A stretch of DNA of 64,000 bases from Spinacia oleracea (taxonomy: Eukaryota > Streptophyta > Magnoliopsida > Caryophyllales > Amaranthaceae). Shown piece by piece: positions 33,822 to 57,226 of this stretch (its first letter is position 1; every line of letters starts with the position of its first letter). Where the stretch lies: the NCBI RefSeq assembly GCF_020520425.1, contig NC_079491.1, forward strand, positions 4,327,143-4,391,142, read 5' to 3'. The position numbers and the translations under genes were made by a program. The notes beneath the pieces were generated by a model. It searched no databases. It was not told the DNA's origin and saw only the letters and a list, made by a program, of their open reading frames with translations.

Positions 33822-33902
33822 GCTTAATTGTAAATTATTTTTAACATGAATTACAGTTTAAATAGAAATATAACTTAGAAGTAACCTCTTGTGATATCAA
33901 TT

Positions 33903-33973
33903 GTGTCTGTAGCTCAGTGGATAGTGTGTGCTTTCTAAGCAGGAGATCGTGGGTTCAAACTCTACTTGACGCG
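33903..33973 (+). pseudogene. Degenerate tRNA-Arg-like sequence
   Basis: 71 bases: GTGTCTGTAGCTCAGTGGATA, a disturbed D/anticodon stem, a loop TTCTAAG, and a T arm with GTGGGTTCAAACTCTAC. Compared with the copy at 34041-34113 it is two bases short in the anticodon arm and its D-stem no longer pairs (GCTC/GTGT). It is probably not functional. Confidence 0.6.
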
Positions 33974-34040
33974 TTTATTTCTTTTTAACCATTTCTTAAT
34001 ATTAATTATAAACATTTCCAAATTTAACTTATCAATATTA

Positions 34041-34113
34041 GTGTCTGTAGCTCAGTGGATAGAGCGTTTGTTTCCTAAGCAGAAGGTCGTGGGTTCAACC
34101 CCTACATGACGCG
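34041..34113 (+). tRNA. tRNA-Arg(CCT)-like gene inside a transposon
   Basis: 73 bases that fold as a cloverleaf without an intron. The D stem GCTC/GAGC is perfect. The anticodon loop TTCCTAA has anticodon CCT. The T arm GTGGG-TTCAACC-CCTAC pairs with one wobble. Pol III A box TAGCTCAGTGG and B box GGTTCAACCCC are present, the latter with one departure from consensus. The acceptor stem GTGTCTG/ATGACGC has a wobble and two mismatches at its base, so it may be a relic. It resembles plant tRNA-Arg(CCT). Confidence 0.55.
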
Positions 34114-50211: not shown

Positions 50212-50532
50212 AGACATACAGAGTGTTTTTTTTAATCCTGATTTTGATACAGATTGAAGAATTTCAGTTTTGTTAGTGACAAGGTTTGAGAAAAATGTTA
50301 TAGAAGTTTATTTTTGCTATGTTTTTAATATGCCAAACATTCAATTGTAGCTGGATTTAGTTTGAGTTGCTACAACTATTCTATGTTTGATTGTTTGGTC
50401 AAATTAAATTATTAGGCTCTTGAACTCATACATACACAAGCTTCATGAAATATAAGGTATTATAAATTCCCTATGTTATAATACCGAGTAAGAGTTAAGC
50501 CAAGTTTAGTTCAAGATAAAAGTTTGAATAAA

Positions 50533-50694
50533 GGATTTTTTGGATAAAATCACCTTTTAAAGTTCACATTTTTGAAATAACCACCTTTTATGTTTTTTTT
50601 TTTAAAAAACCACCTTATATCTTCAAAACTTTAGATTTCACCACCTTTTTCTAACGTTTGTCAAATGTTCCGTTACTGGGGCCCACAACCAACG
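50533..50694. repeat. MULE left terminal inverted repeat
   Basis: It begins GGATTTTTTGGATAAAATCACC and ends at GGGGCCCACAACCAACG. The motif CACCTT occurs four times within it (near 50551, 50583, 50611, 50642), spaced ~30 bases apart, which is a plausible arrangement of transposase-binding sites. Confidence 0.93.
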
Positions 50695-51405
50695 ACTCAA
50701 AATTGATTTCCCTCCAATTCACTCGTCACTCTCTGTCTCTCTCTTCTCATTTACTGCTCTCTTCATCTCCCTTCATCTTCCAATTCCTTCCCCTCATTTA
50801 TTCCCTGTACTTTTGTCCTCAACCACCAATTTCGAATCTCTCTCTTCCATCACTGTCTTTTGTTGCAACAAAGTACAAGAAGAAGCCAAGATTGGGGATC
50901 AAAGCATCTTCTTGGACGTCACAAGGGGGGGACCAAAAACTCCAAATGTGTGGTGTAATTTGTTGCGATTTTAAGGTATTAAACAATAACCCTAATCTCG
51001 ATTTTGGTAAATAATTAGTTAAAAATTTCTGATTTTGTTGATTATGAACCCTAAAAAATTGAATTGTTAAAATTGATGCTATTTGGTGGATTAAAATATA
51101 ATTAGGGTGTTATTCTATGAATAAATTAATTGACAATTTGTAATTGGGTTTGATGTCATTGAAATTAGTTAAATAATCATGGATTTATGTTATTTGCTTG
51201 CCTTTAAATTGTCCCTTATTATCCAACATTGTAGGTATTTTTTGTCACCATCATGTTCTTGTCGTGTGTGTGTTACGTGTTTGTGTTCGGGTCCGTTAAT
51301 ATATTCGGGTTTCGTGTGTCGTGTTCAACCTCGTTTCGTGTTTCTGTTTTTTTTTGTTGTGTATTGTGAATTGAAATTGGGCTTTATTTTCGGATTTTCA
51401 GCAAA

Positions 51406-54400
51406 ATGGCACACTTGTATGAGGATGGGTTTGCTGATCTTAGGATTAAATTAGGTGGGGAATTTAGGGACTCAACATTTAAAGGCAGGCACATTGTGGA
51501 GTATGTGGGGGGTTGTGTTTACTTAAAACCATATGTTTGTATTCAAAACAAGGGAGTGAGTGGGCTTAGACAGATTGTAATCGAGGGGTTCAAAGTCTCT
51601 AATCTACCTATACCATCGGATGTGAGGATGTTTTACCGGATGAACGGGCGGTCATTAACCACTGGGAAGGTTGAAATTAGCAATGAAGAGGACATTTTAG
51701 GAGTTTTACAGACTAAGGACATACATGGGTATGTTGAGATTTTAACCTTAGCAACATTTGAGCGACCCCAATTACCACCACTTCCTGTAACTCCTTTGTA
51801 TAGAATCAAACTTCCCGGGTTTTCAGATATTTTAAGAGGGGAAAGCAGGCCCAGAACCAATCTGATCAACCCATTCAGACCTCCTTCCCAAACTGCCCAC
51901 CCAATTGAACCCACCACACACAAATCAGCCCAACCCAATATCTCTTCCTTACTGAAATTAGCCCACCAAAAACATTCACAGTATAGAGCAAGGTTGAGTG
52001 AAGATGAGGGTTGCAGCAGCCAAAACACAGGGTTTGATTTCAGTGGTATAGGGGGGAGAGTGAAATTGTCTGCTAGGAGGAGCATTAGAAAAAGTGCAGC
52101 AGTTGGTTCTTCTTCCTCCAGTTGGGCAGAAGCTGCTGTTGTGTTGAGTGAAGAAGAGTGGTTAGCTAGCCTATCCAACAAACAGCCATCTCCACATCCA
52201 TCTCCACAGCCATCTCCACAACCATCTCCCCAACCATCTCCAGCTGAAAACACACCCACCAAGACTCCAAAACTGAAAAGAGTTGCACAGAAGAAGAAGA
52301 AGAAGAAAGGGGAGAGAGGGAAGAAGGGTAAAGCTAAGAAGAGGTTGTTTGAAGGATCATCTAGTTCAGATCTGTCTGATTTGGATATAGATTGGGTTGC
52401 AGGGGAGGAAGAGATAGGCTTAGATGATGATGAGTCTTTGTTTTTGCAAACACGAGCCAATGATGATCTGTTTAGGCAGCTGAGACAAAGTATTGGGGGG
52501 AATGCTAACATTGGGGATGAAAGTGTTCAGAGGAATTTCAGAGACCTAGAAGAGCTTGAGGTGAATAACCAAGAGGAGGTTCATTGGGACAGTGATGAGC
52601 TGAGGAGTGTTGCTGGATCTGATGATGATTCAGATGTTGATTATTGCACTTTCAACCCAGTGGTAGACTTCAAAAGGGACATTCAATTGAAGGTTGGGCA
52701 AAGATTTTCTTCAGTTGCTGTGGTTAGGAAGGCAATTAAGGCACATGCTGCTGAGAAGAAATATGATTTTTACTACCTTCACAATGAGCAAAAGAGGTTA
52801 ACTGTCCAGTGTAGGAATAGGTGTGCTTGTCCCTGGGACAGTGTTAAAGGTAGGAAACCTAACTGTGATTGTCCAAACAAATGCCCTTTCAAAATCCATG
52901 TGAGGATGTTGCCACAAACTGATTATATGCAGATTAGAATAATGAATCTGAGGCATACATGTGTTAGGACTACAGTTAATAAGAGTGTGAAGTCTGATTA
53001 CCAATGTGAGAGGTATTTGGAGACTTGGAGGTCAGATCCTCATTGGAAATTGAAGCAATTCATGGAAAGGGTGATGCTTGATATGGGTGTGAAGATAGCA
53101 TATTCAACAACTTGGTTGGCTAGGGCTAGAGCTAAGTTGGCTCTGTATGGTTCATCAGCTGAGCAATATGGTAGAGTGTGGGAATATGCCAGAGCATACT
53201 TGAAATTTAACCCTGGCAGCAGCTGTTATGTGTTGGTTGATAATAGTTTAGGGCCTGAGAAGCCCCTATTCATGAGGATGTACTGCTGCCTAGAGCCTTT
53301 GATGAGTGGTTTTAGGAATGGATGTAGGCCCATTGTTGGTTTAGATGGGTGCCACTTGAAGGGGGCTTATCCAGGTCAGATATTGGTGGCAGTTGGGAAG
53401 GATGGGAACAATAATATCTTCCCCATTGCTTGGGCAACTGTTGAAATTGAGAACACAGAGACATGGTGTTGGTTTATTGATCTGTTCATTAGGGACTATG
53501 ATGGTGGAAATGGTGAGGGGTTGACATTTATGTCTGACAGACAAAAGGTAAAGTATTTTGATTATGGTGTTTTTATTTATTTAATTACATGGACATTTAG
53601 GTTGCAGAAACTAATTCTAATTACATTTTGTAGGGTTTGCTTGAAGCAATTAAGACTGTGACTCCTCAAGCTTCCAACAGATTCTGTGTGAGGCACATAT
53701 GGGCAAACTTCAAGCTCAATTTTCCTGGCACTCTGTTTAAGGATCTGTTTTGGGATGCAGCAAGAACAACAACATATGTAAACTTCACTTTTATCCTTTT
53801 AAAGTTCATGGTTATCTCATTTTAAAAATTGTCATAGTTGACTTATGTTGAATTAGACCAGAGTTGACTTATGTTGAGTTAGGTCATACTTGACCAAAGT
53901 TGACTTATGTTGACTTAGGTCATACTTGACCAAAGTTGACTTAGGTTGACTTTGGGTGTGTTTTGGTGATTTTTGATGATTTGGGGAACGTAATCGTTCC
54001 CGAGTAGATTTTCACTAAAATTAGATATTTAGAGTCTTTTTCGTTCCCGATTAAGTGTGTTTTGGTGATTTTGGATGATTTGGGGAACGTAATCGTTCCC
54101 GAGTAGATTTTCACTAAAATTAGATATTTAGAGTCTTTTTCGTTCCCAGTTAAGTGTGTTTTGGTGATTTTGGATGATTTGGGGAACGTAATCGTTCTCG
54201 AGTAGATTTTCACTAAAATTAGATATTTAGAGTCTTTTTCGTTCCCGATTAAGTATGTTTTGGTGATTTTGGATGATTTGGGGAACGTAATCGTTCCCGA
54301 GTAGATTTTCACTAAAATTAGATAGTTAGAGTCTTTCTCGTTCCCGATTAAGTATGTTTATATGATTTTTGCAGATGGACTTTGAAATTGCCATGGAGTC

Positions 54401-55343
54401 AATCAAATTCCTTGATGAGGATGCTTATTGCTACCTAGATGACATTCAACCAGCTCATTGGTGTAGGTGGGCCTTCATGACTGAACCCAAGTCTAACATG
54501 TTGTTAAACAACTTGTGTGAGACTTTTAATGCAGTCATCAAGGAGGCAAGAGACAAGCCAATTCTGACTCAAATGGAATGGATGAGGAGGTACATGATGA
54601 AAAGAAACAATGACAAATGGGAGGCTGCAAAGAAAATGCAAGGAAGGAAGCTAACCCCATACATAGGAACTGTTTTTGATGGGTTGGAGAAGTACAGCAG
54701 GGGTTGTATTGTGCAACAAAGTAGGGATGATCAATATGAGGTGGAATTAGGCAGTGATCAAGTCACTGTTGATTTGGCAAAGAGGACTTGTTCCTGCTTC
54801 CACTGGGATCTGACAGGCATCCCTTGTGTGCATGCATACTCCTGCATCATGGACAAAAGAGCAAATCCATATGACTATGTACATGAGTACTACAGCTTGG
54901 ATACCTACCTAAAAGCCTATGAGAAGCCAGTGAAAGCAATGACTGGTGCTAAGTTCTGGGAGAAAGTTAACCTTGCTGCACCAGCACCACCTAGGTATAA
55001 GGTACAACCTGGTAGGCCCAAAGCTAACAAGAGGAGACTGGAAGCAGGGGAGAAACAGGGGAAAGGGAAGAAGGCCAAGGGAGACCAACCTACCCAAGCT
55101 GAGCATCCTAAAAGACCTAAGAAACAGAACAAGTGTGGGAAGTGTGGTGGGCTAGGACACAACAGAACCACTTGCAAGAGCACTGGTCCATCTGAAAAGC
55201 CAGCAAACAAAGGGAAGGGTGGTAGGCCCACATCCAACACTCCATGGGTTGCTGAACATAGAAGAAAGAAGGAAGAAAGGGTACATAAGGCTGTTGTGGC
55301 TGCAGCTGCATGTGCAGGATCTTCAAGTCAGCCACAATCCTAA
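51406..55343 (+). CDS. MuDR-family (MULE) transposase
   Basis: Three exons: 51406-53547, 53634-53777, 54375-55343, giving 1084 residues. A leader intron (50976-51401) probably precedes the ATG. The order is as follows. The N-terminal MuDR module (~1-115) is followed by a Pro/Ser-rich linker with SPQPSPQPSP repeats and a Lys-rich stretch (likely nuclear signal) at about 285-310. An acidic region follows (~310-420). The FAR1/WRKY-like zinc module at ~455-530 has CRNRCACPW, CDCPNKCPFKIHVR and RHTC. The MULE DDE core has D1 in PIVGLDGCHLKGAYPGQIL, D2 in GLTFMSDRQKGLLEAI, and the Glu in NNLCETFNAVIKEARD. A SWIM finger (CSCFHWDLTGIPCVHAY) comes next, then a CCHC knuckle (CGKCGGLGHNRTTC) and a basic tail. 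It cuts and joins element ends. No stop or frameshift is seen. Confidence 0.95.
53956..54355. repeat. ~99-bp tandem repeat in the transposase intron, four copies
   Basis: Units start GTGTGTTTTGGTGATTTTGG (53956, 54055, 54155, ~54254) and contain GGGGAACGTAATCGTTCCCG, itself an inverted repeat (GGGAACG..CGTTCCC). Adjacent copies differ at only a few bases. Just before it (53835-53955) are repeats of GTTGACTTAKGTTGA. The array spans nearly all of the last transposase intron. Confidence 0.9.
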
Positions 55344-56389
55344 GTAACCCAATCACAACAGTCTCAACCCCATCAGCACCAGACTCATACTCATCAGCAC
55401 CAGTCACAACCTAGGGATAAAATGCATATCAGGAGGAACATAACTTCGGATTTGTAATTTCTAGTGTGTAGTTAGTAGCATTTGAAGAAAACAATGTCTT
55501 TAAGTGTAATTTTAGTGTTTTTTGAACAACCAAACAAATGGAGGTCTACTTTTGACTTAGTATTATGACAAGTAATGATAAGTAGTTGCTGCTGGTATTG
55601 TGTTCTTGTTCTTGCTGTTGCTGTTGTACTGTTTTAGTTGCTGCTCCTATTGTGTAGTTGTTCTTGGTGATGCAATTGTGTTGTTTGTTGTTGGTGTTGT
55701 TCTTCTGCTATGTTTAGCTGCTGGTGGTGTTCTTCTTGCTGCTGGTATTGTTGTTCTTGCTGCTGCTTTAGTTCTTCTTGCAGCTGGTGGTGTTCTTATT
55801 GCTGCATCAGTTCTGAATTGGCAACCCAACCAAAGTTGACTTAGGTTGACTTTGATCAGTCAACTTTGGTTGGTAAGTTGTTGCTTAGGTTGATTTTAAA
55901 CATGTTTCATTTTTAATTGCTGGCTTAAAGTTGACTTAAGTTAACAAAAGTTGACTTAAGTTGACTTATGTCCGCAATAATTCACTTTTAATTGTTCAAT
56001 TCAACTCATTCTCGAGTTGCAATGACTAAATCTTTGATCGTTTACAATTCTTTCAAGATTGATCATTTCTTTTCAACCATTATTTCAATGTCGAATAATT
56101 GACGGGATTAGGAGAGGCCATACTCAATTTGAAAAGTTTTGAGTTGACGGAGTTTAGACCTAAAAGAACAGAAAAATGACCAGATTTACGACAATTGTAG
56201 CAACTTATTTGCCTCTTCATTACTCCTAATTAAAACAGAACGGTAAGACAAACATATTCATTCAATGATTCCAACGATATTACATTGTCGTCCATCAATT
56301 AAACGCAATCAATTCAACCATCGTTACACTAGATCATTCAATCATACCATCCTACATTCGGATCACTAACGACACCACTAATTCAAAAA
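55344..56389. other. MULE spacer between its two genes
   Basis: It contains a GTTGCTGCTGGTATTG-type simple repeat (about 55585-55810) that reads open but is low-complexity. This is followed by GTTGACTTAGGTTGAC repeats (55836-55970) like those in the transposase intron. The 3' ends of both convergent genes lie here. Confidence 0.7.
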
Positions 56390-56883
56390 CTACTTGAATA
56401 AAATCACAACACCAAATACAATAACTACAAACATTAGGCAAGCCACGAATAACAAACTTTGATCTGCTCCTCCGTTAAGAATGTGCTTTTCCGGACCATT
56501 CATGACCCACCTTTTCGGGTAGCTCAACTCATCAAGCTTTTTTTTCATGTCATTCATCTCAATTTGCATCAATCTTTTCTCCAACAACAGATTCCTTATG
56601 ACATCCCTCTGCCAGAAAGTGCTCTCCAAATCAGTCCACCAAAAATACGAGCATCTCCGTGTATCGGTTTCTCGATCATAGAATTTGCAACCAAGGAATT
56701 TCCGACCCGGATTTTCGTGGGTCCAAGAAGTCAGCCTTGCCACAGGAGCTCCGCAATAACAATACTCTCGTGGACCATCAACCTGCAACAATCAATTGAG
56801 TTAAATTCCCCAAATTGCAAAACCCCCAAATTCAACAATTAAAAACCCTAATTTCAATTAACCTGTTTAAGCACGCGAACCAT
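56390..56883 (-). CDS. GRF zinc-finger, coiled-coil, membrane-tail protein carried by the MULE
   Basis: Two exons on the minus strand, 56883-56863 and 56782-56390, give 137 residues (start MVRVLKQ, then VDGPREYCYC). A GRF-type zinc finger covers residues ~14-60: CYCGAPVARLTSWT, ENPGRKFLGCKFY and RRCSYFWWTD. This is the Cys-X-Cys..Cys..Cys pattern that binds single-stranded nucleic acid in relatives. A coiled coil follows (LLLEKRLMQIEMNDMKKKLDE). The C-terminus is a hydrophobic tail anchor (SLLFVACLMFVVIVFGVVI) with LFK at the end. It lies inside the MULE, convergent with the transposase, much as mudrB accompanies mudrA in maize MuDR, though it is not a mudrB homolog that I can recognise. The first exon's ATG precedes a short intron with good GT/AG ends. 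Confidence 0.8.
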
Positions 56884-57055
56884 GTTTGTTTTGGGGGGAA
56901 AGTGCCGAAATTGGATTGTTGATGAATTGTACTTGATAATTTGTGAGAAAAATTGGCAAATTTTTGAGAATTTTTTGAGGTTGGAGTGCAACAATGGAGG
57001 TTCAGATTAAAAGGAAGAAGAAGAAAGAAAAAAAGGAGGAAAAATGAATATGGCC

Positions 57056-57217
57056 GTTGGTTGTGGGCCCCAGTAACGGAACATTTGACAGACGTTAGAA
57101 AAAGGTGGTGAAATCTAACGTTTTGAAGATATAAGGTGGTTTTTTTAAAAAAAAAAACATAAAAGGTGGTTATTTCAAAAATGTGAACTTTAAAAGGTGG
57201 TTTTATCCAAAAAATCC
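57056..57217. repeat. MULE right terminal inverted repeat
   Basis: The inverse of 50533-50694. Reversed, it starts GGATTTTTTGGATAAAACCACC. It differs from the left copy by about three substitutions and small length changes in the poly-A run. The GRF gene starts about 170 bases inside, so this end probably serves as its promoter. Confidence 0.93.
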
Positions 57218-57226
57218 TTGAATAAA

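Follow-up and report, generated by a model that had tools for sequence, protein, structure and literature searches.

A convergent GRF-type zinc-finger gene with a hydrophobic tail accompanies the transposase in Mutator-like elements of Spinacia oleracea

The element in the window

The window analysed here is a stretch of 64,000 nucleotides from the genome of Spinacia oleracea (contig NC_079491.1; C5:4327143-4391142). Between positions 50524 and 57226 it contains a Mutator-like element (MULE), hereafter WIN; related loci elsewhere in the same genome carry L-numbers. WIN looks autonomous and belongs to a large MULE lineage. Besides its transposase it encodes a protein with a GRF-type zinc finger and a hydrophobic C-terminal tail; this second gene lies within the terminal inverted repeats (TIRs) and is found in very divergent MULEs in the same position and orientation and with the same architecture. 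The element consists of the following features, with target-site duplication abbreviated as TSD:

50524-50532, no strand: left TSD TTGAATAAA (read from sequence)
50533-50694, plus strand: left TIR, 162 bp (TIR alignment)
51406-53547, plus strand: transposase exon 1 with the N-terminal part, DBD_Tnp_Mut and the MULE domain (splice search, Pfam)
53634-53777, plus strand: transposase exon 2 (splice search)
53857-54374, no strand: within transposase intron 2, tandem repeats of 99 bp and repeats of the TTGACTTA type
54375-55343, plus strand: transposase exon 3, which carries the SWIM finger and the CCHC knuckle (splice search, Pfam)
56392-56390, minus strand: stop codon of the GRF gene (gene model by eye)
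56782-56393, minus strand: GRF gene exon 2, 130 codons, with GRF finger, helical region and C-terminal hydrophobic tail (gene model by eye, Pfam)
56783-56862, minus strand: GT-AG intron of the GRF gene (gene model by eye)
56883-56863, minus strand: GRF gene exon 1, 7 codons, MVRVLKQ (gene model by eye)
57055-57217, minus strand: right TIR, 163 bp (TIR alignment)
57218-57226, no strand: right TSD TTGAATAAA (read from sequence)

WIN proper spans 50533-57217 and is flanked by perfect 9-bp copies of TTGAATAAA. Alignment of the two TIRs (162/163 bp) gives 159 identities, three mismatches and one indel, which bears out the inverted ends of ~162 bp, ~97% alike, and the perfect 9-bp target duplication described in the initial annotation. 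TIR identity is not usable as an age clock for this kind of element and was not used as one; the earlier description as apparently recent is supported by L001, which is ~99% identical to WIN along most of its length and has a different TSD. This copy is also an indirect sign that the element transposes.

The three transposase exons encode a protein of exactly 1084 amino acid residues, derived from the sole GT-AG combination without an internal stop within the splice ranges searched; the open frame of this length, with its SWIM and CCHC motifs, had been recognized correctly before. The domains DBD_Tnp_Mut (PF03108, 46.9 bits), MULE (PF10551, 28.9 bits) and SWIM (32.9 bits) all score above their Pfam cut-offs, the evidence for the catalytic DDE residues of the initial annotation being the MULE domain match as a whole; residues 1-152 have no Pfam match, and pattern searches locate the SWIM-like motif CSCFHWDLTGIPCVH and the CCHC motif CGKCGGLGHNRTTC. 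WIN thus shows the hallmarks of MULEs, namely long TIRs, a 9-bp TSD, the PF10551 and PF03108 domains and the SWIM/CCHC fingers. The TTGACTTA repeats of intron 2, which there accompany the 99-bp minisatellite, are seen again near 55826-55981.

The GRF gene and its product

The two-exon GRF gene totals 137 codons and ends 1046 bp past the transposase stop on the opposite strand. Located inside the TIRs and convergent with the transposase, it gives WIN the two-gene layout of the MuDR type. The protein matches the Pfam domain GRF (PF06839) with 25.9 bits, exactly the curated cut-off, and the homolog from L024 scores 22.0 bits, below it. Eight divergent GRF proteins share without exception the four cysteines as well as the W, NPGR and F-W-D positions.

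The 19-residue hydropathy maximum of the WIN tail is 3.35 and lies two residues before the C-terminus. Of 30 intact GRF proteins, 29 have a hydrophobic stretch of 19 residues no more than 12 residues from the C-terminus. The set is made up of the intact frames at 28 of the 36 loci with a GRF match together with L045 and L046, two more distant loci treated below. The lone exception is L030, which reads through the usual stop; altered ends are also seen in L028 and L034, which belong to the 28. The tail sequence varies among families and its hydrophobicity is kept. In a single-sequence structure model (mean pLDDT 52.7) the last 20 residues are helical with values of 90-95. A search among solved structures gave eight weak matches, including NEIL3 (7jl5, E 0.073; 7omk, E 0.1); the top three, glutamate dehydrogenase (E 0.03-0.05), were dismissed as chance.

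The initial annotation had described an antisense gene of 137 residues with a GRF finger, a coiled coil and a tail anchor. The gene, its finger (at the Pfam cut-off) and a hydrophobic C-terminal tail are confirmed. The middle region is probably a coiled coil, as judged from the modelled helix and the sequence, and the C-terminal segment suggests a tail-anchored membrane protein.

Pairing with transposases of the main lineage

The genome of the window (894 Mb, 242 contigs) was searched, with matches mostly on six long contigs. Scored were the best candidates for the TIR (40 of 240), the GRF protein (150 of 402), transposase exon 3 (124 of 1234), Pfam GRF (150 of 485), PF10551 (150 of 1960), the L045 transposase (150 of 1051, listed in part), the GRF 5' flank (40 of 171) and the L046 transposase (150 of 777), and all 138 candidates of a companion search for the third clade. 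A locus outside these match lists is not thereby absent from the genome, and the pairing counts are lower bounds; the final counts consider only the nearest GRF per transposase. The GRF query carried one wrong residue (W for C in the tail, 99% self identity).

The best-scoring matches, at least 150 for the GRF protein and at least 126 for transposase exon 3, merged to 147 and 120 loci, respectively, the transposases reaching down to ~40% identity to WIN over the aligned parts. With the GRF protein search alone, 84 of the 120 transposase loci had a downstream GRF within 20 kb, convergent in all 84 cases and within 3 kb in 78. In this search no GRF was listed upstream of the 120 loci within 20 kb, and 36 transposase and 63 GRF loci stayed unpaired among the matches listed. 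Addition of the Pfam GRF search raised the count to 85, all of them downstream and convergent. When the transposase positions were rotated 200 times along the six long contigs, a GRF on either side within 20 kb was seen for 1.7 loci on average and for 7 at most. The gaps between the two genes are mostly ~0.9-1.3 kb.

Among 26 stretches of at least 3.4 kb, 11 have a TIR pair with 9-bp duplication around the GRF gene (WIN and L001-L006; L012 and L013; L016 and L017); the TSDs are counted at face value, and some of them (L003, L004 and L013) are of low complexity. In L014 and L018 the TIRs enclose both genes and the duplication is not convincing; 12 of the 26 have no TIR pair within the part fetched. 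The WIN TIR itself gave at least 54 matches from the best 40 of 240 candidates, including pairs around full-length relatives. In addition, 14 short fold-back elements of 318-355 bp consist each of two TIR copies at 83-88% identity; these are likely non-autonomous relatives.

A second and a third group of transposases

One GRF class, present in dozens of near-identical copies, belongs to a different MULE, L045; in the aligned parts its transposase shares 34-41% identity with those of L014, L016 and L020 of the WIN lineage. This family was defined as the best 70 matches. A convergent downstream GRF accompanies 58 of these 70 copies (at least 95% identical in the transposase), in 57 cases within 567 bp. 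Of the remainder, 11 have no scored GRF and one has its nearest GRF upstream, in a neighbouring copy; six of the 11 show the GRF 5' flank at 752-762 bp (reference, 759). The next 27 matches, the last entered, comprise 12 convergent pairs and 15 loci without GRF. In one copy read to its ends, a TIR pair of 175 bp (88%) surrounds the GRF gene and is flanked by a TSD of 9 bp, the direct repeat measuring 10 bp at most. The L045 family amplified recently.

For the third clade, represented by L046, transposase identity to L006 and L023 is only ~25% across most of the query; one short part matches L013 at 48%. Among the best 62 of 150 matches, 47 loci have a convergent downstream GRF as the nearest one, 39 of them within 3 kb, and 15 have none.

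The structure of the GRF gene differs between groups: a short first exon in the WIN family, an intronless gene starting just upstream in others, and in L046 a GT-AG intron inside the finger, with the helical region and the hydrophobic tail still there. Such differences, together with three transposase groups that are not joined in one tree, would suit several independent gains of host tail-anchored GRF genes by different MULE clades, each selected. We consider this rather unlikely, as the paired GRF genes are downstream and convergent with the same finger-coil-tail order, and the distances of the two proteins co-vary within the main lineage (see below). It could also be the convergent arrangement itself that is kept, through overlapping transcripts or 3' signals, with the protein being secondary. 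The layout agrees with this proposal, as do its gaps, which measure ~0.56 kb in the L045 family and ~1.3-2.2 kb in the L046 clade, against mostly ~0.9-1.3 kb in the main lineage; purifying selection at the protein level and the conserved zinc ligands make it highly improbable.

A GRF gene general to all MULEs was rejected as far as the matches were listed: among the best 150 of 1960 PF10551 loci, mostly other kinds of MULE, 134 had no GRF within 20 kb and 16 had one (5 of 150 with a smaller GRF list). Being rare among the best Pfam MULE loci, the gene therefore belongs to certain MULE lineages, not to all. Fourteen of the 16 are downstream and convergent (ranks 76-150), one is downstream on the same strand and one upstream. 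In 12 of the 14 the GRF is 8-13 kb away, with repeated distances near 8.5 and 11 kb (e.g. C3:133654224, C4:96796853 and C1:56542443), which possibly represent larger or nested elements.

Selection, co-divergence and exchange

Between families the ratio of non-synonymous to synonymous divergence (dN/dS, NG86) of the GRF gene is 0.07-0.32, near the transposase values where both are measurable, several synonymous distances being near saturation. The values for GRF (transposase) are 0.10 (0.11) for L012-L018, 0.17 (0.13) for L015-L018, 0.16 (0.07) for L024-L025, 0.07 (0.11) for L023-L026, 0.21 (0.19) for L012-L016 and 0.15 (0.14) for L018-L016; the GRF gene alone gave 0.23 for L024-L023 and 0.25-0.32 for WIN or L002 versus L031/L032, which are without transposase. 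The broken L007 was left out of the close-family transposase mean. The GRF gene is under purifying selection between families.

Across 22 loci the GRF and transposase protein distances correlate with a Mantel r of 0.94; with 10 family representatives r is 0.89 (p = 1e-4, 9999 permutations). The 22 were drawn from 28 loci, with L007 excluded as broken and L031-L034 and L036 for want of a long enough transposase. The trees of the two proteins agree on the main groups, and the GRF gene co-diverges with the transposase within the main lineage.

These results bear on the view that a host GRF gene was captured once and has since been carried neutrally as a passenger. MULEs do tend to pick up host gene fragments, according to a MULE survey (PMC6446971), and some members have no GRF or a broken one. 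A single captured gene without selection, the outcome that the initial annotation had named as evidence for passenger DNA, is contradicted by three findings: the gene keeps its position, orientation and architecture in three transposase groups, it is under purifying selection between families, and GRF and transposase distances are congruent. This explanation was rejected as already largely refuted by pairing, selection and co-divergence, and is in our judgement very improbable.

Between the subfamilies WIN plus L001 and L002-L005, the TIRs, the leader and the transposase core differ by ~11-19%. Divergence is only 2.0-4.3% for codons 1-235 of the transposase, and only 2.8-5.6% for the GRF tract (p < 1e-13 per tract and copy, with tract limits set after the profile was seen, sites taken as independent and the four copies being related). 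WIN is thus a mosaic in which the tracts 51406-52110, the transposase N-terminus, and 55901-56883, the GRF gene, are alike between subfamilies. As the GRF tract takes in non-coding sequence, exchange must be involved and not constraint alone, and the N-terminal codons 1-235 have likewise been exchanged between the subfamilies. The shared exchange of the two modules suggests that the transposase N-terminus and the GRF protein work together.

Losses and unpaired loci

The initial annotation had proposed to look for the GRF gene in other copies, and for low dN/dS, and regarded relatives lacking the gene as a sign of passenger DNA. The latter outcome is partly borne out, in that the gene, widespread and under selection as it is, does not occur in all copies: a convergent GRF accompanies 85 of the 120 listed related loci, and for the other 35 none is among the matches listed. 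Among six of these 35 that were read, five (three of them copies of one sub-family) have no GRF in ~2.6-4.0 kb downstream and one has a finger-less remnant; in L038, 96% identical to L026 in the transposase, the GRF finger has been lost behind an insertion.

Several observations speak against a conserved working gene and have to be weighed. In addition to the 35 of 120 related transposases without a GRF among the matches listed, for 103 of 259 GRF loci no transposase belonging to the first two groups was scored within 20 kb, and many of the loci counted are recent copies and hence not independent. Eight of the 36 loci with a GRF match have no intact frame (L001, L004, L009, L011, L014, L019, L020 and L029); L001, so close to WIN, has a frameshifted GRF next to an open third transposase exon. 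The sub-family of L037, with three copies 97-98% identical, shows no GRF in ~2.6 kb downstream, and L039 and L040 none in ~3.9-4.0 kb. The youngest pairs have dN/dS values that do not fall significantly below 1 (WIN-L002, confidence interval 0.07-1.33; L026-L030, 0.74). The two trees place L023, L016/L017 and L005 differently, and the GRF gene and the transposase N-terminus have both been swapped between subfamilies. As for the protein, the Pfam scores of WIN and L024 are at or below the cut-off, the structure model is weak and confident in the tail helix only, and the tail is the least conserved part. The copies with a lost or broken GRF imply that the gene is not needed in cis by every copy. 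Such dispensability in single copies can be what is expected for a trans-acting protein, if the gene acts.

Unpaired GRF loci were also considered as proof of host genes. This was rejected, as four of the ten read (L035, L036, L045 and L046) have a transposase; in the other six (L031-L034, L047 and L048) no transposase was found in the stretch. One of these, L033 (C2:39735500-39739500), has an intact GRF frame in ~1.8 kb between TIR-like ends (83%), with no TSD found and no transposase in the stretch; the TIR pair surrounds the GRF alone. Sixteen GRF loci form a group 63-70% identical to the WIN GRF, 12 of them without stops, which comprises or relates to L031 with L041/L042, L032 with L043/L044, and L034. 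In three loci of this group that were read, no transposase and no TIR pair was present in the stretch, and the L031 locus consists of tandem repeated units with B3-domain open reading frames (ORFs) and one XS-domain ORF. Nine loci listed in the analysis of the L046 clade also carry an L046-type GRF 1.1-5.8 kb upstream on the same strand. This group and the same-strand L046-type cases may be a composite mobile unit or a cluster derived from MULE GRF genes.

Apart from the element, the window contains two adjacent tRNA-Arg genes at 33902-33974 and 34041-34113, with the anticodons TCT and CCT.

Proposed role of the GRF protein

The same pairing in distantly related MULEs of one genome suggests that the GRF gene is a working part rather than a stray captured gene. 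Occurrence in three transposase groups, co-divergence and purifying selection between families support the earlier proposal of an accessory gene unlike mudrB, and we regard a true accessory function as very likely. With somewhat less confidence, we favour as the likely identity of the gene a conserved MULE accessory gene for a membrane-anchored nucleic-acid-binding protein.

By analogy with the GRF finger of APE2, the finger would bind single-stranded nucleic acid. The coil may form dimers or dock a partner, and the tail would hold the protein in the membrane of the endoplasmic reticulum (ER) or the nuclear envelope; coil and anchor together could thus produce a membrane-held dimeric single-strand binder. 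Such a tethered helper would act with the transposase, probably via its N-terminal part, on element DNA or cut ends, and may affect integration, repair or dosage in trans.

As to mechanism, the protein is quite possibly a helper or partner of the transposase, and some other mode of action is a more doubtful possibility. The main rival is a silencing counter-measure, in which the membrane-bound protein would bind single-stranded RNA or DNA and so prevent the element from being methylated or small RNAs from being made. Small interfering RNAs have been associated with long MULE TIRs (PMC6446971), the APE2 finger binds single strands (PMC6122073), and the existence of near-identical copies with a broken GRF means that the gene, if active, can act in trans. 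The joint exchange of the GRF gene and the transposase N-terminus speaks rather for a protein that partners the transposase; we judge the silencing function to be unlikely and favour the partner. A more specific picture is offered tentatively and with considerable doubt: an old and widespread class of plant MULEs would encode its own membrane-anchored nucleic-acid-binding partner, which docks on the transposase N-terminus and holds the element's DNA or RNA to the nuclear envelope or the ER, thereby completing integration or hiding the element from silencing.

The second gene of MULEs is poorly understood, and an accessory gene conserved across very divergent MULEs bears on this question. If the proposal is true, the membrane-type tail would point to a membrane-tied step of transposition or of host control, and many plant genes annotated as 'GRF-type domain proteins' would be genes of these elements, with consequences for annotation. 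An Asteraceae genome paper reports GRF-type fingers enriched beside transposon-related entries (PMC10359422), and in two transcriptome papers GRF zinc finger proteins appear in lists of transcription factors or of stress genes (PMC3146458, PMC5206262); we infer that these entries may be MULE genes.

Comparison with known systems

In the openly licensed literature searched, no report linking GRF proteins to MULEs or transposons was found; one may have been published elsewhere, and the search did not extend to Repbase. The mobile element of the Kochia EPSPS locus was rejected as a published case, with no occurrence of GRF in the main text of PMC6808082. GRF does not occur in the main text of the MULE survey PMC6446971 either.

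APE2, NEIL3 and related repair proteins share the GRF-type zinc ribbon, as reflected in the weak NEIL3 structure matches. In contrast to them, the WIN protein has no catalytic domain, carries a hydrophobic tail and is transposon-encoded. The Zf-GRF of APE2 binds single-stranded DNA (PMC6122073).

VANC is an anti-silencing factor encoded by VANDAL elements and one of the few MULE accessory proteins with a known job. It resembles the GRF protein as a MULE-encoded accessory protein possibly acting on silencing, a likeness of purpose and not of sequence; VANC is not known to have a tail anchor or a GRF finger. VANDAL has a row in a table of the survey (PMC6446971).

Among the second ORFs and motifs known from MULEs are mudrB, MutB, PMD, FAR1, SET and others (PMC6446971). 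The PMD, FAR1, SET and MutB MULEs of Table 1 in that survey are alike in having a second ORF or motif, often antisense, in TIR elements; they differ in that GRF is not among the partner domains of the table.

The closest parallel in layout is MuDR of maize, a MULE with a second gene, whose two genes, mudrA and mudrB, are convergent. The WIN element differs in that its second gene encodes a GRF-finger protein with a C-terminal hydrophobic tail, in which Pfam finds GRF only. mudrB is described as apparently required for integration and as encoding a protein of unknown function (PMC6446971). On our best reading, the GRF gene holds the place of mudrB and encodes another kind of protein.

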